A DNA stretch of 64,000 bases, taken from positions 1 through 64,000 of the IMG/VR virus record IMGVR_UViG_3300006736_003672; one strand, written 5' to 3'. A program made the position numbers and the translations under genes. This stretch comes from a virus. Position 1 is the first letter of the stretch. Each line of letters starts with the position of its first letter. The notes beneath the pieces were generated by a model. That model ran no database searches and had not been told where the DNA came from. It saw only the letters and a list, made by a program, of their open reading frames with translations. Below, piece after piece: positions 2,480-27,368 of the stretch.

Positions 2480-2845
2480 ATGAATTGGAACAAAAAGAAG
2501 AAAATTCAAGGAAAAAATAGATATTATTCTATTTGTAATAAATTAAGAAAAGAAAATAAATCTCATGATGAATTTGAAGTTATGTTAAATAATTTAACTT
2601 TAGAAGAGATAATTGCTTTAAAATTAGAGTTAGCAGCTAAATCTGTAGGAGGTTATCTATATGGTATACCTATATTCTCAGCAATTCCTTATTTAGTTAG
2701 AGACGCTATATTAAAATATTCTCTTTCAGCCACTAGATCTAAGAAAGAAGCAGCCAGATTTTTAGGTATTAAGCTAGATCACTTCAAAAAATTAATAAAA
2801 AAGTACAATACAGAGAATTATTTTGAAGATCTTGACAATAAATAA
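2480..2845 (+). CDS. Small helix-turn-helix protein
   Basis: 121 residues, Lys-rich and mostly helical. Residues about 85-110 (ATRSKKEAARFLGI followed by a basic recognition-like helix) match the Fis/NtrC C-terminal HTH pattern in which a Lys-Lys-x-A-A-x-x-L-G-I helix packs before the DNA-contacting helix. That points to a DNA-binding regulator, but no sensor or enzymatic domain is visible. It has its own strong promoter (2419-2447), and the promoter of the tmRNA overlaps its last codons. It is therefore placed where it could regulate the tmRNA cassette. It could also be a homing-endonuclease-associated or nucleoid-type protein; function is inferred only from the HTH. Confidence 0.7.
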   Translation: MNWNKKKKIQGKNRYYSICNKLRKENKSHDEFEVMLNNLTLEEIIALKLELAAKSVGGYLYGIPIFSAIPYLVRDAILKYSLSATRSKKEAARFLGIKLDHFKKLIKKYNTENYFEDLDNK

Positions 2846-2860
2846 AAAATAGTGTATACT
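2832..2860 (+). promoter_or_regulatory. Near-consensus sigma70 promoter of the tmRNA gene
   Basis: TTGACA at 2832-2837 (perfect), a 17-base spacer at 2838-2854, and TATACT at 2855-2860 (one mismatch). Predicted transcription start is near 2867, about 16 bases before the mature tmRNA 5' end at 2883, which RNase P would generate. It sits across the stop codon of the HTH gene. Confidence 0.85.
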
Positions 2861-2882
2861 TACTTCAGTTCTTTTAAAATTT

Positions 2883-3199
2883 GGGGGTGTCCTGGTTTCG
2901 ACAGAGATTATGATGATATATCTGGCAAGACTGTGTGAATGTCACAGCATAAACATTCAATTTTTAACTGCCAACGATAATGTTGAAGTTGATTACGCCT
3001 TAGCTGCGTAATCTGAGGCTGCTAGTGGCCTTATTCCCCAAAACTAGCAAAAAGTTTCTTATTTCTTTTAAAAAATAAGTGGTGCGCACGTTTAATTGAG
3101 CTACTGAGCAGTTTGCTGGTTCAAAAACCAGATAATCTTGTGAATGACAGTATATTTGATGATTTTTGGACGTGGGTTCGATTCCCACCGCCTCCACCA
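2883..3199 (+). ncRNA. ssrA: Transfer-messenger RNA (tmRNA)
   Basis: One-piece tmRNA of 317 bases that rescues stalled ribosomes and tags nascent proteins. The 5' end GGGGGTGTCCTGGTTTCGAC holds the acceptor strand and the D-loop-like GGTTTCGAC. The 3' end holds the T-arm GTGGG-TTCGATT-CCCAC and the encoded CCA. The 5' GGGGGTG pairs with the 3' CGCCTCC (7 pairs including G-U) as the acceptor stem. An open tag frame with an Ala resume codon lies at 2970-3011, ending in YALAA and TAA. A clean hairpin CTGGTT-caaa-AACCAG lies in the 3' half as part of the pseudoknot domain. All functional parts appear intact, so this is not a truncated integration-site remnant. No SmpB gene is seen in the window, so host SmpB is presumably used. 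Confidence 0.96.
2970..3011 (+). other. tmRNA proteolysis-tag reading frame
   Basis: The resume codon GCC starts a 13-residue tag ANDNVEVDYALAA followed by TAA. The C-terminal ALAA is the classic ClpX/ClpA degron end. The Asn-Asp near the start resembles the SspB-contacting part of bacterial tags. The tag is therefore of the degradative kind, not altered to protect products. Confidence 0.93.
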
Positions 3200-3259
3200 G
3201 ATGAATGACCCTGAGGGTGGAACCGTTGGTTTGAGGGCTGGGCTAATCAACACTTTAAA

Positions 3260-3345
3260 GAGGTTAAAATGGTAACGAAACGTAAGAAAGTTGAAAGTAT
3301 AACACAACAAGAGGTTAAAATGGCAATAAAACATAAGAAAATTGA
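3260..3345 (+). repeat. 51-base tandem repeat duplicating a ribosome site and start codon
   Basis: A 35-base block, GAGGTTAAAATGG followed by a diverged AA-rich stretch ending in TTGA, occurs at 3260-3294 and again at 3311-3345 with a period of exactly 51 bases (17 codons, frame kept). Each copy contains a Shine-Dalgarno-like GAGGT and an ATG (3269 and 3320). The result is two equally good in-frame starts for the same protein. Confidence 0.8.
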
Positions 3346-3595
3346 TCAAACTGATCAAAATGCTAGTAAATCTTGGAAAAATATAGCATATTTCAACGAA
3401 TATCAAGATGCGGACAAGACAAGAGTTAAACTTTTGTCTGAAAACGATAAAATTCAGGTAAAAGTTAAACGTTGTGGCCCCGCAGGCCTAAAATATGTCG
3501 TAAAACTAAGAAAAAACCCAATTTTTGAGGAAAAAACAGAGAAAAAAGGCAAAAAACAGAGAAAAAAGGACAAAAATAAGAAGGTTCAACCATGA
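3269..3595 (+). CDS. Small basic protein between tmRNA and clpP
   Basis: 108 residues from the ATG at 3269, or 91 from the ATG at 3320; the two starts lie in a duplicated block. The middle (residues 35-85) is predicted as short beta strands around VKVKRCGPAGLKYVVKLRKNP. The C-terminal 20 residues are nearly all Lys (KKGKKQRKKDKNKK), suggesting RNA or DNA binding. I do not recognise the family. Its place next to a tmRNA and its basic tail invite comparison with SmpB, but it lacks the length and recognisable SmpB signatures, so that is not claimed. Its stop overlaps the clpP start (ATGA), implying translational coupling. Confidence 0.75.
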   Translation: MVTKRKKVESITQQEVKMAIKHKKIDQTDQNASKSWKNIAYFNEYQDADKTRVKLLSENDKIQVKVKRCGPAGLKYVVKLRKNPIFEEKTEKKGKKQRKKDKNKKVQP

Positions 3596-4206
3596 AAGAC
3601 ATATTTTGGGCTGGAAAAGACAACAAAGAAAAAGAAACTGCCCCAATTGTTGCTACTAGTGATAAAAACAACGTTGTTGAGACAACAAACAACAGAATTT
3701 ACTACTATTCAGAGGTTTCTAGGCAGAAAATCCTTGTTTTGAACAAGAGCTTAAGGAATTTGAATGATAATTTGCTTAATCAAGCGCAATTATTGGGTTT
3801 AGATAACCCTGCTAACATATATTTGCACGTAAACAGCTTTGGAGGCAGTGTTTTTGCGGGTTTATCGGCCGTAGATTACATAACATCATGTGAAGTGCCA
3901 GTTGTTACAGTAGTTGAGGGCTGCGCGGCCTCTGCAGCGACTCTTTTTAGCGTTGTTGGTGCCCACAGACAGATAAGAAGCAACTCTTTTATGCTAATTC
4001 ATCAAATTTCTTCCGGAATGTGGGGGAAATACGAAGAATTAAAGGATAGTATAGATAATTGTGACCTTTTTATGCGAATTATCAAGGATATTTACAACGA
4101 ACATACGAAAATACCTAAGAAAAAGCTTAATGAGATACTAAAACACGACCTATGGTTTGATGCTGAGACATGTCTTGAGTATGGGATTGTGGATGAGATA
4201 ATTTAG
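3592..4206 (+). CDS. clpP: ClpP-type serine protease
   Basis: 204 residues, the normal ClpP length. The fold landmarks are present in order: NSFGGSVFAG (oxyanion strand), nucleophile Ser114 in EGCAASAATLF, His137 in MLIHQISSG, and Asp186 in KHDLWFDAETCLEYG, closely matching the S111/H136/D185 spacing of the E. coli precursor. ClpP forms a two-ring chamber that degrades substrates fed by ClpX or ClpA. No AAA+ partner is encoded in this window, so host ClpX/ClpA would be needed. The gene is translationally coupled to the small basic gene downstream of the tmRNA. An alternative is that it acts as a prohead protease, since some phages use ClpP-fold enzymes for this; the neighbouring tmRNA whose tag ends ALAA favours the degradation role. 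Confidence 0.9.
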   Translation: MKDIFWAGKDNKEKETAPIVATSDKNNVVETTNNRIYYYSEVSRQKILVLNKSLRNLNDNLLNQAQLLGLDNPANIYLHVNSFGGSVFAGLSAVDYITSCEVPVVTVVEGCAASAATLFSVVGAHRQIRSNSFMLIHQISSGMWGKYEELKDSIDNCDLFMRIIKDIYNEHTKIPKKKLNEILKHDLWFDAETCLEYGIVDEII

Positions 4207-4212
4207 TAAATT

Positions 4213-4452
4213 ATGCCAATTTACGAATACAAGTGCCGATTATGCGGCTTTTCCTTCGAAATTATGCAAAAAGTCGAGGAAAGGGCGCCCAAATGCGATA
4301 ATATAGTGATTAGCGGCTCTTTAGAACGAAGATGTGGTGGAAGATGTAAAAAGCTTGTATCTAAAAGCTCGTTTGCATTAAAAGGCGGCGGATGGTACCA
4401 AGATGGGTATGTTAAACCAAATAAAAGCGATAACAATGATAACAAACAGTAA
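4213..4452 (+). CDS. FmdB-type zinc-ribbon protein
   Basis: 79 residues. It begins MPIYEYKCRLCGFSFEIMQ, the usual start of the FmdB/CxxC_CxxC_SSSS zinc-ribbon family. The first CxxC is followed by a second Cys cluster around C-GGRC about 30 residues later and a Ser/Lys patch. Such small proteins are predicted to bind zinc and nucleic acid; their exact role is not known. It follows clpP by six bases, so it is probably co-transcribed with it. A second, more diverged member lies at 31753. Confidence 0.8.
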   Translation: MPIYEYKCRLCGFSFEIMQKVEERAPKCDNIVISGSLERRCGGRCKKLVSKSSFALKGGGWYQDGYVKPNKSDNNDNKQ

Positions 4453-4459
4453 CATATCG

Positions 4460-5254
4460 TTAATAAGGCACATTTTCCTGTATATACTCTTTTAACTGTT
4501 TGTGAGTTGGAGAATATGTCAAAAATGGGAATCTTATATTAACTGAATGAATCATTCCGATTATATAGCCGTCTTTATTGAAAAGAGGAGATCCGGAACT
4601 TCCACCAATCGCCGGTACTGAATATATGGCAAATATTTGTTCCTTATCAGATGGATCTCTGGTTAAATATCCAGCGAAATAACCATCTAATTTGGGAATC
4701 ATGTTTTTATGAAACAGACCCATCGGCGCAGCTAAATTATATGTTTTATCACCTGGTTTTGGCGGATAGTGTGATATTAATGCTGGTTTTCGTTGAAGCT
4801 TTTTGACATAAATCAAACATATGTCTAATTTTTTATTATAATTTATGACATTGATATCATATTTTTTCATATCGATATCATAAGCATAAAATTTAATTTT
4901 TTTTATCGGAATTCCTTTGATGACTGACCGCACAAGAAGATCCATGTCGTCTTCACAAAAATGCGCTGCAGTTATTGCATATGAGCCGGCTTTTCCAGTA
5001 CTAACAACAAAAGCTGATGCAGAGGATATTACTCTTTCTATTCTACACTCAGTTTGTTGTTTTTGTTCGTTCTCTATACACTCTCGAGTAGAAAATTTAT
5101 TTTCAACTTTCAAAAATGATTCTCTAAAGCTTTTATTTCCTTCATTAAGGCCACCTGTAGTCAAATAAGATGAATTTAGGCCGCAGGAAAAAATTAATAG
5201 CGCTATTACAACAAAGATAACAGAAAGCAGTACGTATTTAATTATTTTGTTCAT
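4460..5254 (-). CDS. Membrane-anchored trypsin-like serine protease
   Basis: 264 residues, the only substantial minus-strand gene. Residues 5-23 are a strongly hydrophobic segment ending LLIFSC, so it is either a signal anchor or a lipoprotein with Cys24 (the Phe at -2 is atypical for a lipobox). The catalytic triad of the chymotrypsin/S1 fold is visible: His98 in AITAAHFC, Asp144 in KKLDICLIYV, Ser220 in GGSSGSPLF. The family cleaves peptide bonds in the periplasm or at the envelope. A good Shine-Dalgarno (AGAGAGGA on the coding strand) precedes the ATG. It converges on the zinc-ribbon gene with a gap of only 7 bases. Its opposite orientation and export signal suggest separate regulation and action on the host envelope. 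Confidence 0.85.
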   Translation of the reverse strand: MNKIIKYVLLSVIFVVIALLIFSCGLNSSYLTTGGLNEGNKSFRESFLKVENKFSTRECIENEQKQQTECRIERVISSASAFVVSTGKAGSYAITAAHFCEDDMDLLVRSVIKGIPIKKIKFYAYDIDMKKYDINVINYNKKLDICLIYVKKLQRKPALISHYPPKPGDKTYNLAAPMGLFHKNMIPKLDGYFAGYLTRDPSDKEQIFAIYSVPAIGGSSGSPLFNKDGYIIGMIHSVNIRFPFLTYSPTHKQLKEYIQENVPY

Positions 5255-5582: not shown

Positions 5583-6911
5583 TTGTTTGATGTGACTGTG
5601 AGAAAAAAAACATATGTTTTAGATACCAATGTTTACTTAACTGATGCAAATTCTATTTTTGCATTTGGAAAAAGTGATATACTGGTACCTTTAAAGGTTT
5701 TAGAAGAAATAGACAAACACAAGAAACGACAAGACAGTGTTGGTTTAAATGCTAGAAATACCATTAGAATTCTTGACTCTTTAAGGGAAAAAGGCAACCT
5801 TAAGAAAGGGGTAAGAATAGGCAAAGGTAAAGGCATAATTTTCATTAAAAACTGCGAAACGTCTTTATTACCAGAAGAATTGTCTTCTAAAGACCCCGAT
5901 AATATGATTATCGGCACAGTTCTTGCAGAAAAGCAAAATTTTCCCAATAAAAAGATAATTGTAGTTTCTCGAGACATTAATATGAGAATTAAGTGTGATT
6001 CTCTAGAACTCCCGGTACAAGACTACACAGTTGGGCAAGTTGTACAAAATAGTTCCTTATTATATACTGGTTTCACAAAACATTTAGTTGATGATGAAAT
6101 TGTTGATCAATTTTATGATGGAGAAGACATATTCCTTGACAAAGATGAAGTGAAGCTGCATCCTAACCAATTGGTTATGCTTGTATCTAATTCTAACGAC
6201 AAAAAGACAGGACTAGCTAGATTTGTTAACTATAATTCTAATCTCAAAAAAATTATCGACAAAGGCGATGTTTGGGGAGTCAGGTCCAGAAATAAAGAAC
6301 AAAAATTTGCTTTAGACTTGTTGCTTGACAAAAATGTGCCAGTTGTTACGCTTGTAGGTAAAGCAGGTAGCGGAAAGACGTTGTGCGCCATCGCTGCAGG
6401 CCTCCATCAGACTGTTGAGGATGGCCAGGAGTCGACTTATCGCCGTTTGATAATAACTAGGCCCATACAGCCTTTAGGGCGCGATATAGGCTATTTACCG
6501 GGCTCAATGGAAGAAAAAATGATACCATGGTTGAGTCCAATCAAGGATAATCTAGAATATTTGATGAGTGATAAAAAAACACTTGACATGTACGTAGATG
6601 ATGGTACAATAGAGATAGAAGCATTAACTTATATTAGAGGTCGATCTATTTCTAACGCATATATTGTTATTGATGAATGTCAACAATTATCACAACATGA
6701 AATAAAAACAATTTTGACAAGAGTGGGAGAAAATACTAAACTTGTTCTGACAGGAGATATTGAACAAATTGATAATGTGTATGTCGATGAGACATCAAAT
6801 GGTCTAACATATATCGTTGAAAAATTTAAAGAGCATGAAGTTGCTGGTCATATTACATTGACCAGAGGAGAGCGTTCAAAAGTCGCTACATTAGCGGCAA
6901 AAATTTTATAA
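5583..6911 (+). CDS. phoH: PIN-PhoH protein (PhoH2 type)
   Basis: 442 residues in two domains. The N-terminal PIN nuclease domain (1-150) has the acidic set Asp14 (YVLDTNVYL), Glu41/Asp44 (LEEIDKHK), Asp106 (DPDNMIIG) and Asp131 (SRDINMRIK). The C-terminal PhoH ATPase has Walker A VGKAGSGKT at 259-266 and Walker B YIVIDECQ around 364-365. PIN-PhoH proteins are ATP-dependent RNA-unwinding nucleases. Stand-alone or fused PhoH is among the commonest auxiliary genes of marine phages. The start is uncertain: TTG 5583 or GTG 5592/5598, all directly after the lipoprotein stop and lacking a strong ribosome site. Confidence 0.93.
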   Translation: MFDVTVRKKTYVLDTNVYLTDANSIFAFGKSDILVPLKVLEEIDKHKKRQDSVGLNARNTIRILDSLREKGNLKKGVRIGKGKGIIFIKNCETSLLPEELSSKDPDNMIIGTVLAEKQNFPNKKIIVVSRDINMRIKCDSLELPVQDYTVGQVVQNSSLLYTGFTKHLVDDEIVDQFYDGEDIFLDKDEVKLHPNQLVMLVSNSNDKKTGLARFVNYNSNLKKIIDKGDVWGVRSRNKEQKFALDLLLDKNVPVVTLVGKAGSGKTLCAIAAGLHQTVEDGQESTYRRLIITRPIQPLGRDIGYLPGSMEEKMIPWLSPIKDNLEYLMSDKKTLDMYVDDGTIEIEALTYIRGRSISNAYIVIDECQQLSQHEIKTILTRVGENTKLVLTGDIEQIDNVYVDETSNGLTYIVEKFKEHEVAGHITLTRGERSKVATLAAKIL

Positions 6912-6921
6912 GGAGTAAAAA

Positions 6922-7206
6922 ATGGAAATTGAATGGAAAAACACAGAAGAAGGAACAAACACAACTCTCGATGAAGTTGTCGGAAAAGACACTGAATTGA
7001 AAAGCTGGCTTGTTGATTATGTTGGAACCCAACATGACCCGGAAGATGGAAACGTTTCTGTTGAAATGATTGTTGAAACAGTTGCAAAAGAATTTCCGGA
7101 ATTTCTTTTAGTGGTTGCTGAAGAAAATTGGGTTAGAGGATATCAGCAGGCATTAGTGGATGTGGATGTTGGTAAGCAAGTGTCAGAAAATGACAACGAG
7201 GAATAA
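6922..7206 (+). CDS. Small acidic protein of unknown function
   Basis: 94 residues, acidic throughout, with a predicted helical middle (VSVEMIVETVAKEFPEFLLVVAEENWVRGY). AGGAGT lies seven bases before the ATG, one of the better ribosome sites in the window. No domain is recognised. Genes of this size and composition commonly sit beside PhoH in large marine phages. Its 3' end overlaps the start of the metallopeptidase gene by 17 bases. Confidence 0.7.
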   Translation: MEIEWKNTEEGTNTTLDEVVGKDTELKSWLVDYVGTQHDPEDGNVSVEMIVETVAKEFPEFLLVVAEENWVRGYQQALVDVDVGKQVSENDNEE

Positions 7207-7888
7207 TATAACTGAGTATATCAAAAGTTCTTCTCTTAGAACGCTAAAAGACAGAACTCACTACGAATTTTTCAATAACGTACAGGTTTACATAAAAGAT
7301 TCTTTACCAAAAGATTTTGATGTATTGTTTGTTCTTAAAAAAATTGAAAATTTGATTCCTTCGCATTTTGTATATAATCTAGATTCTATTTTTGTTGGTC
7401 AATTTGATGAACTTATAGAAAGAGAAGTGAACGCCCTGTATAGGGATGGCGCTCTATATATAACAAATGATCAGACGGACGAAAATGACATGATTGATGA
7501 TATTATACATGAAATTGCTCACGTTGTTGAGGAAATGGCAGAAGAAGAGATATATGGTGATAATAAAATTAAAAATGAATTTTTAGGCAAAAGAAAAAGA
7601 CTATATAGTATTCTCAAAAATGAAAATTTTTATATCGAAATGAAGGATTTTTTAAATCCAGAATATTCAGAAAGTTTTGATGACTTTCTTTATAAAGAAG
7701 TTGGATATCCTCTTCTGACTAGCTTAAGCATGGGCCTGCTTGTCTCGCCATATGCTGCTACATCTTTAAAGGAGTATTTTGCTAGCGGCTTTGAAGAGTA
7801 TCATCTTAAAGATAGAGAGTATTTAAAAAAAATAAGCCCTAATCTTTATTTTAAAATTGAAGAACTACTAGAATGGACGAGGTATTAA
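7190..7888 (+). CDS. Zinc metallopeptidase, gluzincin type resembling anthrax lethal-factor (ATLF) domains
   Basis: 232 residues from the ATG at 7190, chosen over the longer frame from 7160 because the upstream codons lie deep in the preceding gene. The zinc site is IIHEIAHVVEE: His107, Glu108, His111. The likely third ligand is Glu195 in LKEYFASGFEEY about 84 residues later, the HExxH...E(Y)FA arrangement of the ATLF/M34-like gluzincins. There is no signal peptide, so it should act in the cytoplasm, either maturing a phage protein or cleaving a host one. It could also be packaged and injected. Substrate unknown. Confidence 0.75.
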   Translation: MTTRNNITEYIKSSSLRTLKDRTHYEFFNNVQVYIKDSLPKDFDVLFVLKKIENLIPSHFVYNLDSIFVGQFDELIEREVNALYRDGALYITNDQTDENDMIDDIIHEIAHVVEEMAEEEIYGDNKIKNEFLGKRKRLYSILKNENFYIEMKDFLNPEYSESFDDFLYKEVGYPLLTSLSMGLLVSPYAATSLKEYFASGFEEYHLKDREYLKKISPNLYFKIEELLEWTRY

Positions 7889-12967: not shown

Positions 12968-13698
12968 AAATTAGTGTAATAATACCGTGTTATAATGCCG
13001 AAAGGTGGATTGAAAAATGTGTTTTATCTGCAATAAATCAAGATTATGAAAATAAAGAAATTATAGTTGTTGACAACGAAAGTACAGATAATAGTTTAAA
13101 TCTTATTAAAAATTTAAAAGAGAAACATAATGATTTAATTGTAAGTTCCGCAGAAAATATTTATAAGTACTCATGGACAGAGCCAGTAGACGAAGGTCTT
13201 AGATTATCTTCTGGCGATTATATAACAATTGTTGGAGCAGACGATTTCTTAGACGCAACATATTTGTCTAATGTTATGAAATGTATAATGCTAGATCCGA
13301 AAAAAATATTAGCATTTCAAAGCCCAATTAGATCTGTCAACGGGGCAGAAGAAACATATGCTGGCGATATAGGTCACAGCTATAAGAGTTTGGATGACTT
13401 TAAAAATCAACTTTTCGAAAAATGCCCCGTTACAACTCCGAGTGTTTTTTATAGTAAAAAAATACATGAAAATGGGTTGTTAACGTGGAACTCTGAAAAA
13501 TATTTAGGAGCGTCAGATTATGATCTATATTTTAGATTAGCAGACAACAATATATTTATATATCCAGCTCCTAAGTGGCTTGGATATTATTATAGATGGC
13601 ACGACAAACAAGCTACTTGGGGGATGCACTCTGAAAAAGTCAGTTATGACAATATTATAAAAAAACACTGGAAAGAAAAATGGGACAAGTCAGAGTAG
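12964..13698 (+). CDS. GT2-family glycosyltransferase
   Basis: 244 residues. It begins MKISVIIPCYNAERWI, with VDNESTDNS as the nucleotide-binding strand and GADDFLD as the DxD metal site, the standard order of GT-A fold family 2 enzymes. It overlaps the previous gene (ATGA), and its own last codons contain the start of the ThDP enzyme gene. It is short and lacks a membrane segment, so it would be a cytoplasmic inverting transferase. Confidence 0.88.
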   Translation: MKISVIIPCYNAERWIEKCVLSAINQDYENKEIIVVDNESTDNSLNLIKNLKEKHNDLIVSSAENIYKYSWTEPVDEGLRLSSGDYITIVGADDFLDATYLSNVMKCIMLDPKKILAFQSPIRSVNGAEETYAGDIGHSYKSLDDFKNQLFEKCPVTTPSVFYSKKIHENGLLTWNSEKYLGASDYDLYFRLADNNIFIYPAPKWLGYYYRWHDKQATWGMHSEKVSYDNIIKKHWKEKWDKSE

Positions 13699-15479
13699 CA
13701 GATTATATAGTTGATAGAATTAGTCAACTAGGAGTAAAAGATATTTTCACCCTTACTGGTGGAGGAGCCATGTTTTTAAATGATGCTGTAGGAAAACATC
13801 CAAATATTCGTGCTGTATTTAACCATCACGAACAAGCGTGTGCCATGGCAGCAGTTGGATATGCTAAATACAATAATGATTTTGCCGTTGTGATGCCTAC
13901 AACGGGATGTGGGTGCACTAATACTATTACTGGATTATTAGAGGCGTGGCAAGACAATGTAAAGTGCTTGTTTATTTCAGGCCAAGTTAATAAATCTCAA
14001 ACAACGTATAATTGTGATTTACCACTCAGGCAGATAGGAGTGCAAGAAGCAAATGTTATTGAGATGGTTAAATCTATAACAAAATATTCTGTCATGATTA
14101 ATGATCCAGAACAAATAGCTTATCACCTTGATAAGGCAATATATTTAGCAGAGTCTGGTAGACCAGGGCCAGTTTGGCTAGACATTCCATTGGATGTACA
14201 GGGTGCCTATATAGACCCTCTAGAGGTTAGAAGGTTCGAACCTGAAGAAGAAAATACTTTCAAAGAAACCCCACTGAAAGAAGAATATGAAATTTTAGAA
14301 GATTACTTCAACGAGGCAAAAAGACCGGTGTTGCTGGTTGGCAACGGCGTAAGGATGGCTTCTGCTATAAATGAGCTTAAGCATTTTGTTGAAAAATTTA
14401 ATATCCCTACGGTCACAACTTTTCTAGGAATAGATTTGTTGCCTAGTCACCACCCATTAAACATAGGGCGCATTGGAATCAAGGGAAACCGAGCCGCAAA
14501 TTTTGCAGTTCAGAATTCTGATTTATTGTTGACAGTTGGAACCAGATTGGGAGTTCCAGTTGTTGGGTATAAGTATGAATTGTTTGCGAGAGAGGCAAAA
14601 ATAGTTGTTGTTGACATTGATCCTGAAGAGCATAAAAAAGATACCATTAAAATAGATTATTTTATTAATGCAGATGCAAAATTATTTTTAGAGGGATGCA
14701 ATTTCGAAAAACAATTTGATCAAACTTGGGCAAACACGTGTTTGGGATGGAAAAACAAGTGGAGAATTTGTCAGCCTGATTGGGAAGAAGACCGAGAAGG
14801 GATAAATCTTTATTATTTTACTGATAAGCTTTCGAAAAACAATAAAAGAGACTCTGTCGTTGTTTCTGATGCTGGTTCTTCCTATTATGTAACGTCACAA
14901 TTTTTAGACATATCACATGAGCAGAGACATATTACATCTGGTGCCCAAGCAGACATGGGCTTTACTATTCCTGCCGCCATAGGAGTCAGCGTAGCAAAAA
15001 ACAATGGTGATGTAATAGGTATTACAGGAGATGGGTCTTTTCAAACAAACATACAAGAACTACAAACAATTGTACAATACCAATTGCCAATCAAATTATT
15101 TGTTTGGAATAATCATGGTTATTTATCAATTAGAACCACACAAAAGAAATTTTTTAAAAACGATTTTGTAGGAGTTGATAATGAAAGTGGAATTTCTTTT
15201 CCAAATACAGAAAAAATTGCCAATGCTTATGGAATCAAATATTTCAATATTAAAAAATCAAAAGACATAGATAAAATTTTAAAAGAAGTCATTGATTACA
15301 GTGGTCCAGTTATATGTGAGGTTATGTGTCAGAAGTGGCAAGAAATAGTGCCCACTTTAGTTTCAACTAAGACAAAAGATGGTCGTGTTGTATCTAGGCC
15401 TTTTGAAGACATGTATCCTATTTTATCAAGAGAAGAGTTTTATGAGAATATGATTGTTAAACCGATTGAATATGATTAA
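13680..15479 (+). CDS. ThDP-dependent acetolactate-synthase-like enzyme (YerE-like candidate)
   Basis: 599 residues, full length for the IlvB/acetolactate synthase fold. The activating Glu51 lies in NHHEQACAMAAVGYA; the ThDP/Mg motif is GDGSFQTN...NNHGY in the C-terminal third. Homologues inside O-antigen loci often do not serve valine synthesis; the best known, YerE, adds a two-carbon unit from pyruvate to C4 of a 3,6-dideoxy-4-ketohexose to make yersiniose. An RfbH-type 3-dehydratase and a 4,6-dehydratase lie 3-6 kb downstream, which fits this. No IlvN regulatory subunit is present. The alternative is generation of a ketoacid for the adjacent PanB. Family call firm, substrate inferred. Confidence 0.85.
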   Translation: MGQVRVADYIVDRISQLGVKDIFTLTGGGAMFLNDAVGKHPNIRAVFNHHEQACAMAAVGYAKYNNDFAVVMPTTGCGCTNTITGLLEAWQDNVKCLFISGQVNKSQTTYNCDLPLRQIGVQEANVIEMVKSITKYSVMINDPEQIAYHLDKAIYLAESGRPGPVWLDIPLDVQGAYIDPLEVRRFEPEEENTFKETPLKEEYEILEDYFNEAKRPVLLVGNGVRMASAINELKHFVEKFNIPTVTTFLGIDLLPSHHPLNIGRIGIKGNRAANFAVQNSDLLLTVGTRLGVPVVGYKYELFAREAKIVVVDIDPEEHKKDTIKIDYFINADAKLFLEGCNFEKQFDQTWANTCLGWKNKWRICQPDWEEDREGINLYYFTDKLSKNNKRDSVVVSDAGSSYYVTSQFLDISHEQRHITSGAQADMGFTIPAAIGVSVAKNNGDVIGITGDGSFQTNIQELQTIVQYQLPIKLFVWNNHGYLSIRTTQKKFFKNDFVGVDNESGISFPNTEKIANAYGIKYFNIKKSKDIDKILKEVIDYSGPVICEVMCQKWQEIVPTLVSTKTKDGRVVSRPFEDMYPILSREEFYENMIVKPIEYD

Positions 15480-15483
15480 AAAA

Positions 15484-15523
15484 AATCTTAATAAAAAAAT
15501 AATTTTGTGTTATTATTAAGATT
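15484..15523 (+). promoter_or_regulatory. Perfect inverted repeat overlapping a possible promoter before panB
   Basis: AATCTTAATAA at 15484-15494 and its exact reverse complement TTATTAAGATT at 15513-15523 flank an 18-base AT-rich centre. Between and within the arms lie TTAATA (15488-15493), a 17-base spacer and TATTAT (15511-15516) with TG two bases before, so a weak sigma70 promoter coincides with the palindrome. It could be an operator, a mRNA stem-loop, or a weak terminator (no T-run follows). It lies in the largest gap of the sugar array. Confidence 0.5.
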
Positions 15524-15548
15524 GAACAACCACAACTCGGAGGAAAAA

Positions 15549-16472
15549 ATGGCTGCTAATGATAAAAATAAAGTTACGATTTTAAAATTAAGAAAACAAA
15601 AAAGGGAAGGGCAAAAAACTGTTTTGGCCACATCGTATGATTACCCGCAAGCGGTAATTACAGATGGCGCAGGAGTTGATGCTATTCTTGTGGGAGATTC
15701 TTTGGGAATGACAACTTTGGGTCACAAAACCACAATTCCTGTAACAATGGATGATATGGTTTTACACTGTGAAGCTGTTTCGAGAGGAGCAAAAAATGCT
15801 TTTCTTATTGGAGATATGCCCTATATGTCTTATCAAGTGTCTAACGAAGAAGCAGTTTACAACGCAGGAAGATTTATAAGGTCTGGCATGGATTGTGTTA
15901 AAGTAGAAGGAGCAATGACAGACAGAATTAAAGCTATTGCGGAGTCTGGGATATTGGTTATGAGCCATCTTGGCCTCACTCCTCATACGAGAGCTAAGCT
16001 TGGTGGTTATAGAGTGCAAGGTAAAACTGCTGAGCAAGCAGATATTATTTTAGAACAAGCTCTTAAATTACAAGAAGCTGGTTGCTCGTTCTTATTATTA
16101 GAAGCGATGCCGAAGGAACCAGCAGAACTAATTGCTAAGGAATTGTCAATACCAGTGTATGGAATCGGCGCCGGCGACAGAGTCGACGGACAGCTTGTTA
16201 TTTTTCATGATTTAATGGGCCTGTTTTGGGAATTTAAATCCAAGTTTGTTAAAAGGTATTGCGAAGCTGGCCAAATTATGCAAAAGGCAATGATAGAATA
16301 CGCGGATGAAGTTAGAAATGGTGTCTTTCCGTCCGAAGAGAATTTTTATGAAATTAAAGATGAAGAACTTGAAAAACTTCTTTCTGATAGCAAATGGAAA
16401 TATGAAACAGATCAAGGATTCCCTACTAATCACTGTTTAACGCCAAACACGGTTACAAGAAAAAATAAATAG
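15549..16472 (+). CDS. panB: PanB-type ketopantoate hydroxymethyltransferase
   Basis: 307 residues from the ATG at 15549, chosen because GGAGG stands 6-7 bases upstream; the longer frame from 15507 begins in the palindrome. The sequence follows PanB closely: TSYDYPQA, VGDSLGMTTLGH (Mg and substrate site), MPYMSYQ, VKVEG, MSHLGLTPH, LLLEAMP with the catalytic-type Glu, and IPVYGIGAGDRVDGQ. PanB transfers a hydroxymethyl group from methylene-tetrahydrofolate to alpha-ketoisovalerate in pantothenate synthesis. No panC, panD or panE is nearby, so in this context it may hydroxymethylate another ketoacid or sugar intermediate. Its separate ribosome site and upstream palindrome suggest some independent control. 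Confidence 0.9.
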   Translation: MAANDKNKVTILKLRKQKREGQKTVLATSYDYPQAVITDGAGVDAILVGDSLGMTTLGHKTTIPVTMDDMVLHCEAVSRGAKNAFLIGDMPYMSYQVSNEEAVYNAGRFIRSGMDCVKVEGAMTDRIKAIAESGILVMSHLGLTPHTRAKLGGYRVQGKTAEQADIILEQALKLQEAGCSFLLLEAMPKEPAELIAKELSIPVYGIGAGDRVDGQLVIFHDLMGLFWEFKSKFVKRYCEAGQIMQKAMIEYADEVRNGVFPSEENFYEIKDEELEKLLSDSKWKYETDQGFPTNHCLTPNTVTRKNK

Positions 16473-17324
16473 GTGAAGATATTAGTAACAGGGTGTAGTG
16501 GCTTTATTAGCCGCGAATTCGTTTCATATTTTAAAAACATAAATCATGCAATATATCTAACAAATAGAAATAATTTAAATGTTCTTAATGAGCAAGAAGT
16601 TGATAATTTCTTTAAAGATAATAAAATTGATGTAGTTGTTCATTCTGCCGCCAAAGGAGGTCGAAGAACATGTAAAGAATCTTATGAAGATTTTTTATGC
16701 AATATGAGAATGTATGATAACCTAAGCAAACATGCAGATGAGTTTAAGATGATGTTTCATTTTGGATCTGGCGCGGAGTTTGATAGACGAACGGACATAG
16801 ATGATGTTAAAGAAGAAGAAATATATGATTCCTTTCCTGTTGATTTTTATGGTTTCTCAAAAAAGATGATCGCGAAAAAAATTAAGAAACATAGTGACAA
16901 TATTATAAATTTGAGATTGTTTGGATGTTTTGGAATTCAGGAAAATGAAGATCGAATGATCAAGTCCAATATAAAAAGATATGTGAACAATGAACCTATC
17001 ATTATACACAAAAATAAAAAGATGGATTTTTTCTTCGCGGAAGATCTGTGTAGAGTAATAGAGTTTTATTTGCAAAATTGGAACCCGGGCACACCGCGAG
17101 ATGTTAATATGGTGTATCCCCAAAAAGAAACTTTAAAGGACATAGCCAACATGATAAATTTTCTATCAGAGAACAAGAGTAAAATTATTGTAGAACAGGA
17201 TGGCCTTGATAACTCATACTGTGGAAACGGAGAAAAGCTAAATAATTTAAATATTGACCTAGTTGGGCTTAGTTATGGACTGCGTAAGTTGTATAGTTCC
17301 TTGTTTAACAAAAAGAGATTCTAG
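16473..17324 (+). CDS. NAD-dependent sugar epimerase/dehydratase (extended SDR)
   Basis: 283 residues, GTG start immediately after the panB stop. TGCSGFIS is the Gly-rich NAD(P) site and Y-G-F-S-K (in VDFYGFSKK) is the catalytic YxxxK. HSAAKGGRR is similar to the HAAAKVGG strand of GDP-fucose synthase, suggesting a 4-keto reductase or epimerase acting on a nucleotide-4-keto-6-deoxysugar. It is short for the family (usually 310-330), lacking part of the C-terminal substrate lobe. It is a candidate for the reductase that must follow the ThDP enzyme or the 3-dehydratase; specificity is inferred. Confidence 0.78.
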   Translation: MKILVTGCSGFISREFVSYFKNINHAIYLTNRNNLNVLNEQEVDNFFKDNKIDVVVHSAAKGGRRTCKESYEDFLCNMRMYDNLSKHADEFKMMFHFGSGAEFDRRTDIDDVKEEEIYDSFPVDFYGFSKKMIAKKIKKHSDNIINLRLFGCFGIQENEDRMIKSNIKRYVNNEPIIIHKNKKMDFFFAEDLCRVIEFYLQNWNPGTPRDVNMVYPQKETLKDIANMINFLSENKSKIIVEQDGLDNSYCGNGEKLNNLNIDLVGLSYGLRKLYSSLFNKKRF

Positions 17325-17341
17325 TGTTATGATTGTGGAAC

Positions 17342-18304
17342 ATGCATGATGTTGTAATATTTATTATGAGTTCTGGACCAAATGTTGGTTTGAGCGGTAA
17401 GGCAAATTTGACTGAAACTGTGTATTCCATTTCTAAAAACATTGGAGATGTCGATTACAAATATTATATTGTGACAGATTCTCGTTCACAAGAAAAATTT
17501 GCTCATGAATTGTTTTCTCACGAATCTCTCAAACATGTAGTAAAACCAGAATCTTTATTAGAGGTGAAATATTCAGAAGATTCATGGGCAAGGGAATTTA
17601 ATTTGTTTTTTGATAACCACAAAGACAATACTAAATATGTTTTATTTTCACATGATGATTTGATAGTTAAGACTCCTGATTTTTTTACAAAGACTCTCGA
17701 AGAAATTAAAGATGCTAAAGATCCAATTGGGTGGATATCTTTTACAAATGATAGATATTATAAGTTCGATAAAAATCCAGTAGCTAATTCTTTTAAGGAT
17801 CCTTTTTGCCTAGACAGACACAACGATCCTAGAATTTACGAATGTCATAATTTTGAGCCTGATGAGAAAGTTACAGAACAAAATTATGATAAACTAGATT
17901 TTCCGAATAGAGCAGTTAAATGTCATGGGCCTTATGCTCATTTAAACTTGGTAAGCTCCGAAGCTCTTGAGAAAATAGGACCATGTGTTGAGTGGACAGA
18001 TTATACAATTTTAATTGATAATGACTGGGCTCTAGAATCTCTTAAATCAGGGTTCTTCAATGTTTGGATACCAGATGTTTTATATACACACCCAAATCCA
18101 AAATACCCGAGAACGCCTGGCACTGATTTGAGATTTGAAAGAGAGGCACATGAGAAATTTTATAAAAAATGGGGGTTCCCATTGTGGGAAATGCCCCTTA
18201 GTGACGATGTTATTGTTTACATTAGGCAGAAATTTAAAGATACCAATATACCATTGTCATCTTATAGGAATTCTTATGATTGGGATTATTTAAAAGATGA
18301 ATGA
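17342..18304 (+). CDS. Predicted GT-A glycosyltransferase-like protein
   Basis: 320 residues from the ATG at 17342; a TTG three codons earlier is possible and neither has a clear ribosome site. It begins VVIFIMSSGPN and contains YVLFSHDDLIVKTPDF, an aspartate pair at the position of the GT-A DxD motif. ILIDNDWALESLKSGFFNVWIPD in the C-terminal half resembles the acceptor part of rhamnosyltransferase-like GT2 proteins. No membrane segment. I take it as another cytoplasmic transferase of the array; not recognised to subfamily. Confidence 0.6.
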   Translation: MHDVVIFIMSSGPNVGLSGKANLTETVYSISKNIGDVDYKYYIVTDSRSQEKFAHELFSHESLKHVVKPESLLEVKYSEDSWAREFNLFFDNHKDNTKYVLFSHDDLIVKTPDFFTKTLEEIKDAKDPIGWISFTNDRYYKFDKNPVANSFKDPFCLDRHNDPRIYECHNFEPDEKVTEQNYDKLDFPNRAVKCHGPYAHLNLVSSEALEKIGPCVEWTDYTILIDNDWALESLKSGFFNVWIPDVLYTHPNPKYPRTPGTDLRFEREAHEKFYKKWGFPLWEMPLSDDVIVYIRQKFKDTNIPLSSYRNSYDWDYLKDE

Positions 18305-19646
18305 GTTAGATCAGATACTAAAGCCACTTTCCGAATATATAGAAAATAAAAAAAGAAGAGAAACGGTGTGGCACCCGGGAAAAGATTGGGTTTCATATTC
18401 AGGAGATGTGTTTTCAAAAGACGAATATCTTGCTGCAATTAAGTCTTTGATTGATGGGTGGTTGGTGTTTGGAAAAAAGAGTCGACAATTTGAAATAGAA
18501 TTCGCGCCACACTTAGGAATGGATAAGGGAATATTAACAAATTCTGGATCTTCTGCCAATTTGTTAATGGTGTCCGCGCTCAAATCTAAAAATCTTTATA
18601 ATTTTCCTGTGGGTACAAAAATTATTACTCCAATTGTGTGTTTTCCAACAACGGTAAATCCAATACTTCAGTGTGGCTTTGTTCCTGTTTTTGTTGACTC
18701 CACGTTGCCTGATTTAAATTTAGATCTGGGTCAGGTTGAAAAAATATTAGAAGAAGATACAAATAGAGAGATTAAGGCTATAATGTTCGCTCACGCCCTC
18801 GGAAATCCCCCAAATATGGATAAAGTTATGGAACTGGTACAAAGGTATGATCTGATTCTATTAGAAGACGCATGCGATGCTTTAGGATCAACTTACGATG
18901 GAAAGAAACTGGGCTCTTTTGGAGATATGTCATCTTGTTCTTTTTACCCTGCACATCACATGACGCTTGGTGAAGGAGGTTTCGTAGCCACAAATAAGGC
19001 AAGGAATCATAAAGTTTTATTAAGTTTACGTGACTGGGGAAGAGCTTGTTTTTGCAATACTAAAAAGCCTGGAGATGTGACGGGAGAAACTGCATGCGGT
19101 AATAGATTTAGAAAGTGGCTTCCCAAAAATAAAGATTTAATCTACGATCATCGATATGTGTATAATGAGATAGGTTTTAATTTGAGGCCATTAGAATTGC
19201 AAGCTGCGATTGGTTTAGAACAACTTAAGAAAGTAGAAAGTTTCCACTCTTCTCGTATTAAAAACTTTAATTATCTTTTAGATGTTTTCAAACCATACAA
19301 AAAATACTTTCACCTTCCAAGACCGACAGAAAAATCGAACCCTTCATGGTTTGCTTTTCTGTTAACTATCAGAGATAGCGCTTCTTTTAGCAGAGTTGAC
19401 TTTATAAAACATTTGGAAGATGCTAAAATACAAACTAGAAATTATTTTTCAGGCAACCTGTTATATCATCCTGCTTATTCGGAACTGGCAGAACAATATG
19501 AAGATTTAAAGGAAATGTTTCCTGTGGCGCATAAGGCTGCAACTAATTCTTTTTTCCTAGGAACATATCCTGGACTAACAAAGGAAAAATTAAGATATAT
19601 ACGTAAAGTTGTAAATGGTTTTTTTAAAGGGAGAATTACAAAATGA
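18297..19646 (+). CDS. rfbH: RfbH/E1-type NDP-4-keto-6-deoxyglucose 3-dehydratase
   Basis: 449 residues, DegT/DnrJ/EryC1 fold. The diagnostic feature is SFYPAHHMTLGEGG: the residue that binds PLP as Lys in aminotransferases is His220 here, exactly as in the CDP-6-deoxyglucose 3-dehydrase E1 (RfbH/AscC). Downstream, RACFCNTKK...ETACGNRF supplies the Cys set that in E1 holds a [2Fe-2S] cluster. The enzyme removes the C3 hydroxyl, giving 3,6-dideoxyhexoses such as abequose, paratose, tyvelose or yersiniose precursors, with an iron-sulphur flavoprotein reductase (E3) that is not in the window. Overlaps the preceding and following genes (ATGA), so tightly coupled with the dehydratase that follows. 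Confidence 0.88.
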   Translation: MNELDQILKPLSEYIENKKRRETVWHPGKDWVSYSGDVFSKDEYLAAIKSLIDGWLVFGKKSRQFEIEFAPHLGMDKGILTNSGSSANLLMVSALKSKNLYNFPVGTKIITPIVCFPTTVNPILQCGFVPVFVDSTLPDLNLDLGQVEKILEEDTNREIKAIMFAHALGNPPNMDKVMELVQRYDLILLEDACDALGSTYDGKKLGSFGDMSSCSFYPAHHMTLGEGGFVATNKARNHKVLLSLRDWGRACFCNTKKPGDVTGETACGNRFRKWLPKNKDLIYDHRYVYNEIGFNLRPLELQAAIGLEQLKKVESFHSSRIKNFNYLLDVFKPYKKYFHLPRPTEKSNPSWFAFLLTIRDSASFSRVDFIKHLEDAKIQTRNYFSGNLLYHPAYSELAEQYEDLKEMFPVAHKAATNSFFLGTYPGLTKEKLRYIRKVVNGFFKGRITK

Positions 19647-20590
19647 AAGTTGTTTATATAACAGGTTGTTTAGGGTTTATGGGTTCTTATGTAACACGCG
19701 CATGTTTAAAGAAAGGGTGGCATGTAAGAGGGGTAGATAAGATAACATACGCATCGAATGAAAATTTATTACAAGAGTTTAAAAAATATGAAAATTTTGT
19801 TTTTGAAAAAAAGGATATTAATGATTTAGATTGGTTATATGATTGCGATTATATTATAAATACGGCAGCCGAAACTCATGTTGATAATTCAATTGTTAAG
19901 AGTGGGGAGTTTGTTCATTCCAATATAAACGGAGTGCATAATTTGTTAGAATTAATTAAAACAAAAAAATATTTTAGAATGCCTATTTTTCTTCATTTTA
20001 GTACGGATGAAGTATATGGAGATATAATTGATGGAGATCACAAAGAAACTGACTTGTTAAAACCAAGTAATCCATATTCGGCCACAAAAGCTGCCGCCGA
20101 TCAACTAGTTTTGGCTTGGAGCAGGACTTATGATGTACCATATGTCATTGTTAGGCCGACTAATAATTATGGCGTAGGCCAATACGTAGAAAAGTTAATA
20201 CCAAAAGCTTGTAAATTTTTATCATTGGGAAAGAAAATTCCTTTGCACGACGGAGGAACGCCTGTTAGAATTTGGCTACATGCTAAAGATACTGCCTCTG
20301 CAATAATGAGAATCATAGAGTCAGGAAAAGTTAATGAAATTTATAATATAGCCGGCGGCTATGAACAAAAAAACCTTGACACTGTAAAGAAAATCTTAGA
20401 TTTATATTTTGAAGGGCAAAATATAGATTATAGTGATTATATAGATTTTGATTTTAAAAGAGTGGGTCAAGATTTAAGGTATTCTGTTGATGATTCTAAA
20501 TTGCAAAATTTAGGCTGGAAAACTGATTGTAATTTCGATCTAGAATTGCCAGAGATTGTAAAATACTATAAAAATAATTTTATTTGGTAA
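19643..20590 (+). CDS. RmlB-like NDP-glucose 4,6-dehydratase
   Basis: 315 residues. TGCLGFMGSY is the NAD site; HFSTDEVYG holds the catalytic Thr-Asp-Glu of 4,6-dehydratases; NPYSATKAAAD supplies YxxxK; RPTNNYGVGQ and RVGQDLRYSVDDSKLQNLGW match the RmlB substrate lobe. It would convert NDP-glucose to NDP-4-keto-6-deoxyglucose, the substrate for the RfbH-type enzyme it overlaps. Sequence looks more like dTDP-glucose than CDP-glucose dehydratase, so the nucleotide is uncertain. No matching nucleotidyltransferase (RmlA or RfbF) is in the window. Confidence 0.86.
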   Translation: MKVVYITGCLGFMGSYVTRACLKKGWHVRGVDKITYASNENLLQEFKKYENFVFEKKDINDLDWLYDCDYIINTAAETHVDNSIVKSGEFVHSNINGVHNLLELIKTKKYFRMPIFLHFSTDEVYGDIIDGDHKETDLLKPSNPYSATKAAADQLVLAWSRTYDVPYVIVRPTNNYGVGQYVEKLIPKACKFLSLGKKIPLHDGGTPVRIWLHAKDTASAIMRIIESGKVNEIYNIAGGYEQKNLDTVKKILDLYFEGQNIDYSDYIDFDFKRVGQDLRYSVDDSKLQNLGWKTDCNFDLELPEIVKYYKNNFIW

Positions 20591-20593
20591 AAA

Positions 20594-21529
20594 ATGCAAA
20601 TAGATTTTGAACAAATAATCGATAAACATAAAGGCACCGCCGCCGTCGTGACTGTCCATGGGCCAAGTTTAAACGAGAATAAAGAAAAGATTAAAGATTT
20701 ACAAAAGCAAAAAAAAATTATTAGAATTGACTGTAGTGATTGGCTTAATTTTTTTGAAGAACCTCCGGACTATTGGATAATCGCCAACGGAGAATTGGCC
20801 ATACAAGATTTGATAAATGATACCGGGATATGGAAACTAAGAAATTACTCAATTGACGTTAACAAATACGAAGATGCCACGATATTTTTTGCCGGGTCAG
20901 TAGATTTTTCAGATAGAGATTTTGTATCTGAAAACTTAAAACCTGATTATTTAATTTATGATCAGCGACATTTCAAGCATCACAAATGCCTAGATATTTT
21001 AAAAAATTTCCAGCGGCATTACAAAGAAAAACAAGAATTTAATTTTACTGAATATGGAAACAACTCTTCAATGTGGATGCCGCCAAGATATAAAGGTGGA
21101 GCCGGATTTTCAGGAGCGCTTCCACACGGCCCCACTGGGGGAGGGAAATGTTGTAACTGGATTAATCCAAATGTAGCAACGGTGCAGGAAAAGCTTCAAG
21201 AAGTTTCTGGATATTCAGAACATTATAGTACCGGTGACACTGTTGCAGTTCATATGATAGCGTTTGCCATAATTATGGGCTGCAATCCAGTTTACATTTC
21301 TGGATTAGATTTAGATTATAAATTAGGATTTGCTAATAAAAATGTATATTTGCCACAAGACAATGATGATTGGCAGAAATTAAGTAATAATTTAAAAAAT
21401 GATTTAAAAGTCCTTAATGAGAGTGCAAAAATTCGTGGCATACAAATTGTTAACTTACATAAAGATCCGTGGTATAATGAGTTTGAAAAAGGCGCCTTAA
21501 AAATACATCTAGGAGAGGATAATGAATAA
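20594..21529 (+). CDS. Maf/DUF115- or CST-like protein, candidate nonulosonic-acid transferase
   Basis: 311 residues. VVTVHGPSLNENKEKIKDL followed by IIRIDCS and PPDYWI fits the G-x-GPSL...I-K-L...I...D...PDY pattern of DUF115/MptE-like proteins, including Maf flagellin nonulosonate transferases. GCNPVYISGLDLDY is the later strand shared with Campylobacter CST-type sialyltransferases (GT42). Both families use CMP-sialic-acid-like donors, and NeuB and NeuA follow directly. A Gly-rich loop PTGGGKCC (residues about 180-187) is unusual. It could instead be a sugar-phosphate processing enzyme; the transferase role rests mostly on context. Confidence 0.6.
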   Translation: MQIDFEQIIDKHKGTAAVVTVHGPSLNENKEKIKDLQKQKKIIRIDCSDWLNFFEEPPDYWIIANGELAIQDLINDTGIWKLRNYSIDVNKYEDATIFFAGSVDFSDRDFVSENLKPDYLIYDQRHFKHHKCLDILKNFQRHYKEKQEFNFTEYGNNSSMWMPPRYKGGAGFSGALPHGPTGGGKCCNWINPNVATVQEKLQEVSGYSEHYSTGDTVAVHMIAFAIIMGCNPVYISGLDLDYKLGFANKNVYLPQDNDDWQKLSNNLKNDLKVLNESAKIRGIQIVNLHKDPWYNEFEKGALKIHLGEDNE

Positions 21530-22361
21530 GACTTTTATAATTGCTGAAATAGGAATTAATCACAATGGGGATTTAAAAATAGCTAAAAAACTAATTAATG
21601 GAGCAGCCAAAGCCGGCTGCGATGCTGTAAAGTTTCAAAAAAGAACGATTGATTTAGTATATGCTACAGAAGATTTAGATAGACCTCGTGAAAGTCCATG
21701 GGGAACCACGAATAGAGAACAAAAACAAGGCCTGGAATTCAATAAGAGACAATATGATTCTATCGACGCGCATTGTAAAAAGAAGGGAATTGAATGGCTT
21801 GCGTCTGCTTGGGATGTAGAAAGTCAAATATTTTTAAGACAGTATGATTTAAAATACAACAAAGTAGCATCAGCCATGCTTACACATCGCCAATTATTAG
21901 AGATGATAGCAGAAGAGGGAAAGCATACGTTTATATCCACTGGCATGAGCACTGTTGAACAAATTGGGAAAGCGGTGCAAATATTTGAAGATGCAGATTG
22001 CCCTTATGAATTAATGCATTGCAACAGCACGTATCCTATGCAAATTGAAAATGCTAATCTTAGAGCGATGGGAACTTTGAAAAATACATTTCAATGCGAC
22101 GTTGGCTATAGCGGCCACGAGTCTGGAATTATTGTTAGTTGTGCTGCAGCCGCTATTGGCGCCACATCAATTGAAAGACACATTACATTAGATCGGGCGA
22201 TGTACGGATCGGATCAGGCTGCATCGTTGGAATTAACAGGACTAAATAGGCTTGTTGAATACGTTAGAGACATTGAAACATCGTTGGGGAGTCCTGAAAA
22301 GCATGTGTATGAAAGTGAGAAATCGATTGCTAAAAAGCTGAGAACAGTTGACACGTTATAG
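21522..22361 (+). CDS. neuB: NeuB-type nonulosonic acid (sialic/legionaminic) synthase
   Basis: 279 residues with AGGAGAGG before the ATG. IAEIGINHNGD, AGCDAVKFQKR, ISTGMSTVEQI, ELMHCNSTYPM, VGYSGHESGI and SIERHITLDR are the successive active-site strands of the NeuB TIM barrel, with the metal-binding His in GYSGHE and ERHIT. It condenses phosphoenolpyruvate with an N-acylhexosamine to a nine-carbon acid. Usual NeuB proteins have about 340-350 residues because of a C-terminal antifreeze-like (SAF) domain. That domain is absent here: the protein ends after the barrel with KLRTVDTL. Confidence 0.92.
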   Translation: MNKTFIIAEIGINHNGDLKIAKKLINGAAKAGCDAVKFQKRTIDLVYATEDLDRPRESPWGTTNREQKQGLEFNKRQYDSIDAHCKKKGIEWLASAWDVESQIFLRQYDLKYNKVASAMLTHRQLLEMIAEEGKHTFISTGMSTVEQIGKAVQIFEDADCPYELMHCNSTYPMQIENANLRAMGTLKNTFQCDVGYSGHESGIIVSCAAAAIGATSIERHITLDRAMYGSDQAASLELTGLNRLVEYVRDIETSLGSPEKHVYESEKSIAKKLRTVDTL

Positions 22362-23085
22362 AATAGCAGCGCTTATACCAGCTCGCGGAGGAAGCAAAGG
22401 AATACCACGTAAAAATATAAAACAATTACATGGATTTCCCTTAATCGCTTATTCTATAGCAGTGTGCAAATTATCAAAATATATTGATGATATTTTTGTG
22501 TCTACTGAAGATTTGGAAATTGCACAAGTTGCTGAGAAATATGGAGCAACAATTCCTTTCATTAGACCATCTGAATATGCAACTGATAATTCAACAGATC
22601 ACGATGTTTTAAAACACTTTTTTAAAAACATAGATGTTGAAGATTTAATTTTTATTAGACCGACAACTCCTCTCAGGTGTCCAAATAGTTTGGATGAAAT
22701 TGTTGAAAAATATTATGAAAACAAAAAAGAGACAACCTCCATTCGTTCTGTGCATGAAATACCTGAATCGCCACATAAACTTTTTAAAATAGAAAATGGA
22801 TACTGTAAAGGGTTTTTTAAAGATTTTAAAGGAGATGAGAATTATACTAATTTGCCTAGACAAGTCTTTCCAAAAGCTTATCAGCCTAATGGATATGCGG
22901 ATATTTTAAAAAGAAGCATTGTTGAATCTGGGACTTCTTTTGGGGATAAAATAGTTCCGTATATAACTGATTTTGTAACGGAGATAGATGTTTCATATCA
23001 GTTTGAGATGTTAGAGAGAGAAATAAAATTTAACGGGCATAAATTATTAGATTTTTTAAATGAAAACTATACAAACAAAACATAG
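22348..23085 (+). CDS. neuA: NeuA-type CMP-nonulosonate cytidylyltransferase
   Basis: 245 residues, TTG start inside the last codons of neuB; no ATG is available before the conserved region. ALIPARGGSKGIPRKN is the CTP-binding signature. FVSTEDLEIAQVAEKYGA, FIRPTTPLR and GYADILKR are further hallmark positions of acylneuraminate cytidylyltransferases (NeuA/PseF/LegF/PtmB). It activates the NeuB product to the CMP-sugar. With NeuB it makes a minimal activation pathway; the precursor-making steps (NeuC or Leg/Pse enzymes) are not clearly present. Confidence 0.92.
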   Translation: MTRYRIAALIPARGGSKGIPRKNIKQLHGFPLIAYSIAVCKLSKYIDDIFVSTEDLEIAQVAEKYGATIPFIRPSEYATDNSTDHDVLKHFFKNIDVEDLIFIRPTTPLRCPNSLDEIVEKYYENKKETTSIRSVHEIPESPHKLFKIENGYCKGFFKDFKGDENYTNLPRQVFPKAYQPNGYADILKRSIVESGTSFGDKIVPYITDFVTEIDVSYQFEMLEREIKFNGHKLLDFLNENYTNKT

Positions 23086-27366: not shown

Positions 27367-27368
27367 AT

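Follow-up and report, generated by a model that had tools for sequence, protein, structure and literature searches.

A tmRNA gene upstream of a ClpP gene lacking the Clp-ATPase docking pocket in an uncultured T4-like marine phage

On one strand of its genome, a T4-like marine phage known only from uncultivated sequence carries a complete tmRNA gene that looks functional, followed by a clpP gene whose predicted product retains the catalytic triad and has lost the pocket in which Clp ATPases dock. Comparison of related virus genomes indicates that the linkage of the two genes is real but lineage-specific, and the same gene order appears in two further, unrelated phage lineages. We lean towards a reading in which an early tmRNA would use the host's SmpB, while ClpP would be an accessory, co-transcribed peptidase acting without canonical ClpX docking.

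The 64-kb stretch of DNA analyzed here (the window) is part of a 75,875-base uncultivated virus record. It encodes a gp25-type baseplate protein, and relatives with near-full-length records carry gp23 and an S77 protease, which together assign the source to a T4-like lineage. The phage has no close isolate, since the protein of one gene near the tmRNA (o2, below) had no match among 50,697 isolate records and the best isolate match of the window's baseplate protein was only 32% identical. The tail region holds two giant open reading frames (ORFs) of 3097 and 3624 codons (39038–48331 and 52682–63556), and by-eye judgement places a block of sugar-nucleotide, glycosyltransferase and sialic-acid-type genes (NeuB-like, CMP-sugar-like) at 13680–31539. 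A Tubulin/FtsZ-like GTPase gene at 33076–34176 (PF00091, E 5.6e-7, just below the Pfam cut-off) has homologs of 60–67% identity in several relatives and lies directly after the tmRNA in L009, L168 and L195.

Both ARAGORN and Rfam RF00023 called a one-piece tmRNA (ssrA) at 2883–3199 (+ strand). The covariance score of 122.5 bits (E 2.2e-47) exceeds the 47-bit cut-off and the match spans the complete model (positions 1–374), which agrees with the first-pass annotation that an intact tmRNA is present, with the amendment that the mature RNA starts at 2883, not 2867, downstream of a promoter-like site. A tag reading frame at 2970–3011 encodes ANDNVEVDYALAA, followed by a stop; the peptide has a hydrophobic C-terminus ending in ALAA. 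The acceptor stem is of the alanine type with CCA, its G3.U70 pair is invariant in 10 of 10 aligned related phage tmRNAs, and compensatory changes occur at 21 of the 54 predicted pairs in the same ten-sequence alignment. The retention of G3.U70 together with these compensatory changes shows that the window tmRNA is under structural selection and is no decayed insert. Neither ARAGORN nor Rfam detected another tmRNA or any tRNA in the window, and a blastn search of the tmRNA against isolate phages returned only a 37-base match. No SmpB gene was found among the 17 phage records searched, with control genomes positive. The tag was too thin a clue to name a host: a pattern search of a genome collection found only four MAGs with ANDNVEYALAA, three of them titled Myxococcales.

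Directly before the tmRNA is a sigma70-type promoter-like site (TTGACA-17-TATACT, 2832–2860, + strand; an 11/12 match in a motif scan). Counting both strands, the window contains only three sites this good, and two of them directly precede o2 and the tmRNA. The same hexamers are found at the same place before the tmRNA in L002, L004, L005 and L007, with changed spacers, and L208 also has an 11/12 promoter-like site. As the site is sigma70-like, that is, of host type, transcription of the tmRNA is probably early; no T4 late promoter, TATAAATA, was present near the tmRNA–clpP cassette. Downstream and on the same strand are o3 (3269–3595), which encodes a small basic protein without a Pfam or PHROG match and has homologs beside clpP in close relatives only; clpP (3592–4206); and an FmdB-type zinc-ribbon gene (4213–4452; PF09723, E 3.8e-9), which also follows clpP in close relatives. 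These identities confirm the first-pass gene assignments, and the tmRNA-to-clpP gap, estimated there at 400 bases, is 392. The o3 stop overlaps the clpP start (ATGA, 3592–3595), six bases separate the end of clpP from the zinc-ribbon gene, and no terminator-like site was seen between the tmRNA and o3/clpP, making it plausible that tmRNA, o3 and clpP form one transcription unit.

Upstream of the tmRNA, o2 (2480–2845, + strand) encodes a 121-aa helix-turn-helix protein with a weak HTH_28 match and is a conserved neighbor of the tmRNA. The backbone of the neighborhood on the other side consists of a gene for a trypsin-like serine protease with an N-terminal hydrophobic segment (4460–5254, − strand; PF13365, 2.7e-12), whose position is kept in relatives, and a gene for a PIN-PhoH (PhoH2-type) protein (5583–6911, + strand; PF02562, 3.1e-49; PF13638, 3.8e-27), found near the tmRNA in many phage loci. 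An ORF at 7160–7888 contains an HExxH zinc-protease motif and, with the trypsin-like gene, brackets PhoH; three different proteases (ClpP, the trypsin-like protein and the HExxH ORF) are thus clustered around PhoH, an arrangement conserved in relatives.

The window ClpP matches PF00574 (E 1.2e-29), and the alignment shows an intact Ser-His-Asp triad in it and in all phage members that cover these positions. In an AlphaFold monomer model the best PDB matches were all ClpP, with TM-scores of only 0.45–0.57; a long helix is placed differently in the model and in these matches, and the handle helix, predicted at residues 137–171, is long. G005, G007 and G024 (L206, L205 and L207) encode a second, very different ClpP paralog with Asn in place of the catalytic Asp.

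ClpX, ClpA and ClpC bind ClpP by inserting an IGF/LGF loop into a hydrophobic pocket. The key pocket residues, numbered as in E. coli, are Tyr60, Tyr62 and Phe82, and they are as a rule conserved (PMC12383707, PMC11005422). When Tyr62 or Phe82 of B. subtilis ClpP is mutated, casein degradation and ADEP binding both fall sharply (PMC11005422). Judged from its sequence, the window ClpP has no such hydrophobic pocket. In the phage ClpPs of its type (type A), position 62 is His or Arg in 53 of 53 and position 82 is mostly Ser, Ala, Asn or Lys; among 36 bacterial control ClpPs, all from one phylum, 33 have Tyr62 and 33 have Tyr or Phe82. Position 60 did not discriminate between phage and bacterial proteins. 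Positions 90, 92, 112, 114 and 189 are also members of the pocket in the E. coli complex. Position 92 is Glu or Asp in 54 of 54 type-A proteins and non-acidic in 36/36 controls, and Leu114 occurs in 0 of 55 and 36/36, respectively. These replacements indicate that type-A phage ClpPs have lost the Clp-ATPase docking pocket. With its triad intact, the phage enzyme probably cleaves peptides, but it probably does not dock the host's Clp ATPases canonically. Tyr62 and Leu114 are retained in phage ClpPs encoded beside a phage ClpX.

A ClpX/ClpA-type ATPase was not found in the window's record or its close relatives. A ClpX-type ATPase occurred in only one of 16 records, G007, in which no tmRNA was detected, and we therefore set aside a phage Clp ATPase as the partner of ClpP; o3 was likewise dropped as an obligate partner because most clpP genes lack it as a conserved neighbor. 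The G007 ClpX is full-length (L205:324-1577, minus strand) and has an MGF loop. Across 80 viral ClpX loci the loop read IGF in 59 (E. coli counted in), MGF in 17, VGF in five and LGF in one.

In the window's own group, the tmRNA precedes clpP by about 0.4 kb or less in six of seven close loci (the window, L002, L003, whose contig begins inside the tmRNA, L004, L005 and L007). In the seventh, L009, the two genes are 2.0 kb apart, with a tRNA-Ala gene and the tubulin-like gene between them. The adjacency suggested by the first-pass annotation thus holds for close relatives, as it does for two further unrelated lineages described below, but not for distant type-A clpP loci: among 45 with at least 2.5 kb of upstream sequence, none had a tmRNA within 2.5 kb, and in two the tmRNA was 5.7–5.9 kb away. 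Type-A clpP sits directly beside tRNA-Arg(TCT) in L018, L020-L022, L024, L026, L055 and L062, often with tRNA-Leu, -Ile and -Met genes around it.

The o2 gene is a far steadier companion. All 20 survey loci holding an o2 homolog had it upstream of the tmRNA and in the same orientation, within 3 kb in 19 and within 1 kb or slightly above in 18. Type-A clpP, by comparison, was absent from seven of the eight records of the o2–tmRNA group tested for it (L168, L195, L194, L097, L117, L141 and L176), some of the eight being fragments and the stretch of L168 examined showing no o2 match; the eighth, L156, has one distant type-A clpP about 60 kb off. In G024, o2, the tmRNA, the trypsin-like gene and PhoH stand together without clpP, which is about 70 kb away. 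The constancy of the o2–tmRNA pair and the records without clpP, including G024, place the tmRNA of this group with o2 and PhoH, clpP being a later neighbor. The proposal that tmRNA and ClpP form a phage-controlled rescue unit is accordingly only partly sustained: strand and the terminator-free interval fit it, but the constant neighbors of the tmRNA are o2 and PhoH.

We scanned viral contigs for the tmRNA 3′ end and obtained 273 loci, 200 of them with an ARAGORN tmRNA. ClpP was encoded within 3 kb in eight of the 200 and beyond 3 kb in one; in all eight near loci, which represent only two clades, the tmRNA was upstream on the same strand. PhoH was a commoner neighbor of viral tmRNAs than ClpP (26 survey loci), and in most of these 26 it was on the same strand within about 5 kb, in one-piece and permuted groups alike. 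In clade B the tmRNA is permuted, with tags such as ANDSVYALAA; a Cpn10 gene lies between it and clpP in many loci, gp32 lies downstream, and of the 45 loci long enough to judge, 42 keep the linkage, over an interval of 1.0–2.9 kb. In the T4-like phages L349-L428, tmRNA, Cpn10 (GroES-type), a cell-wall hydrolase, ClpP and gp32 share one stretch, possibly a proteostasis neighborhood. Clade C, comprising two genera, has a permuted tmRNA 0.06–0.6 kb upstream of clpP with the tag ANDAFYGEMRLAA; a 60%-identical relative has another tag. ClpPs of lineages A, B and C share only 27–33% identity between lineages. The triad is intact in types B and C, and the docking residues are altered in both, at 62, 82 and 114 in type B and at 62, 82, 92 and 114 in type C. 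With lineages B and C in hand we dropped the view of the linkage as a one-clade oddity.

An S14 protease was absent from 24 of 33 long tmRNA-bearing virus records; in three of the nine positive records it was within 2.5 kb of the tmRNA, two of these belonging to one clade, against roughly 0.5 event expected for nine such records (a rough figure, 5 kb divided by the length of each record and then summed), an excess that is suggestive, not conclusive. The recurrence consists of three events only, one of which was found by ascertainment, with clpP near the tmRNA in only two clades of the 200-locus survey. Even so, the same order recurring with unrelated tmRNAs and unrelated ClpPs makes chance alone a poor account, given a small survey.

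The reading towards which we lean can be set out as follows. The tmRNA, with its own sigma70-like promoter in a conserved HTH-gene/tmRNA/PhoH neighborhood, would be served by the host's SmpB, EF-Tu and alanyl-tRNA synthetase, adding ribosome-rescue capacity during infection, and disposal of proteins bearing its ALAA-ending tag would fall to host proteases. Downstream, clpP would be an accessory insertion, probably transcribed together with o3 and the zinc-ribbon gene. Its product would assemble into an active ring that functions without docking ClpX canonically and would either remove peptides and unfolded fragments on its own, independently of ATP, or act in concert with some partner. The recurrence in three lineages suggests that co-expression is useful, whether for host takeover, amino-acid recovery or cleaning up rescue products.

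Of the competing explanations, one that we regard as unlikely, while giving it real weight, is that the adjacency is functionally meaningless, the region from the HTH gene to PhoH being variable and simply collecting tRNAs, a tmRNA and accessory proteases. G024, with its clpP far from an otherwise complete stretch, is as this explanation predicts; so are the tRNA genes that lie within 1.5 kb of clpP in 18 of the 45 distant type-A loci in place of a tmRNA, and the occupation of the slot in L009 by a tubulin-like gene and tRNA-Ala. Hitch-hiking fits less well with independent recurrence among unrelated tmRNA and ClpP types, always with the tmRNA first and both genes in one orientation, or with the persistence of the linkage in lineage B while the interval varies. 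We consider it improbable that the two genes are instead coupled as one unit, with ClpP breaking down rescue products either independently of ClpX or through a loader specific to the phage or its host, such as o3 or another AAA+ protein. The three-lineage order would suit such coupling, as would the o3–clpP overlap, a MoxR-like AAA+ ORF in G002 and the conservation of His/Arg62 with Asp/Glu92, as if a charged surface had supplanted the old pocket; yet o3 is missing beside most type-A clpP genes, most of which also have no tmRNA nearby. Somewhat more doubtful still is the bolder proposal that several unrelated lineages independently built a tmRNA–clpP module as a private rescue-and-recycle pathway, in which the dockless ClpP would degrade rescue products independently of ClpX.

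The first-pass model, in which phage ClpP joins host ClpX or ClpA to degrade proteins tagged by the phage tmRNA, we judge to be decidedly unlikely. The intact triad, the ALAA-ending tag and the order shared by three lineages all accord with it, but the docking residues are replaced in types A and C and altered in B, the host's ClpP already does this job, and most tmRNA-bearing phages lack clpP. The lost pocket makes a simple "tag and destroy" story unlikely as written. Lastly, a role for ClpP in prohead (head maturation) proteolysis, suggested by the name of its best PHROG match, phrog_94, is extremely improbable and we reject it, because five relatives (G002, G005, G007, G014 and G024) encode a separate S77 (gp21-type) protease close to gp23 and 30–150 kb from clpP (in G002, S77 at 44.5 kb, gp23 at 38–39.5 kb and clpP at 137 kb), so that clpP is not the protease gene of a capsid operon and "head maturation protease", the name given in the database, is a misnomer for the type-A clade. 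The linkage thereby withstands the part of the first-pass refutation test that concerns a prohead protease in the capsid operon.

Phage tmRNAs, detected in 2.3% of the phage genomes of one study, and their position behind early promoters (PMC9004378) are already known, as are phage ClpPs (PMC7824862). The Methylophilales phage Melnitz, likewise marine and of T4 type, has a tmRNA gene that directly follows an early promoter, whereas its tmRNA is two-piece, has a glutamine riboswitch and lies beside a transcription coactivator, with no ClpP linkage reported; its authors proposed that tmRNA tags host proteins for recycling (PMC9004378). The tmRNA/SmpB sets of huge phages are similarly phage-encoded and part of a translation takeover, but some of those phages encode SmpB, and ClpP is unmentioned in the main text (PMC7162821). 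The jumbo-phage ClpP of Escherichia phage 121Q (gp464) is, like that of the window, an S14 ClpP outside a simple head operon (PMC7824862) and within 8 kb of PhoH, although it keeps Tyr62 and Met92 and has neither tmRNA nor tRNA genes within 8 kb. With the bacterial ClpP/ClpXP–ssrA pathway, the window shares the fold, the triad and a tag ending in ALAA; the ATPase docking pocket of bacterial ClpP is replaced in the phage protein. In the open-access literature we found no study of a tmRNA–ClpP linkage or of the docking pocket of phage ClpPs, and, as far as we searched, the recurrent tmRNA-then-clpP order and the lost dock are undescribed there. The three-lineage recurrence makes a possible joint, non-canonical action of tmRNA and ClpP worth testing. 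The recurrent order and the dockless ClpP offer a handle on whether phages run their own disposal of the products of stalled ribosomes.
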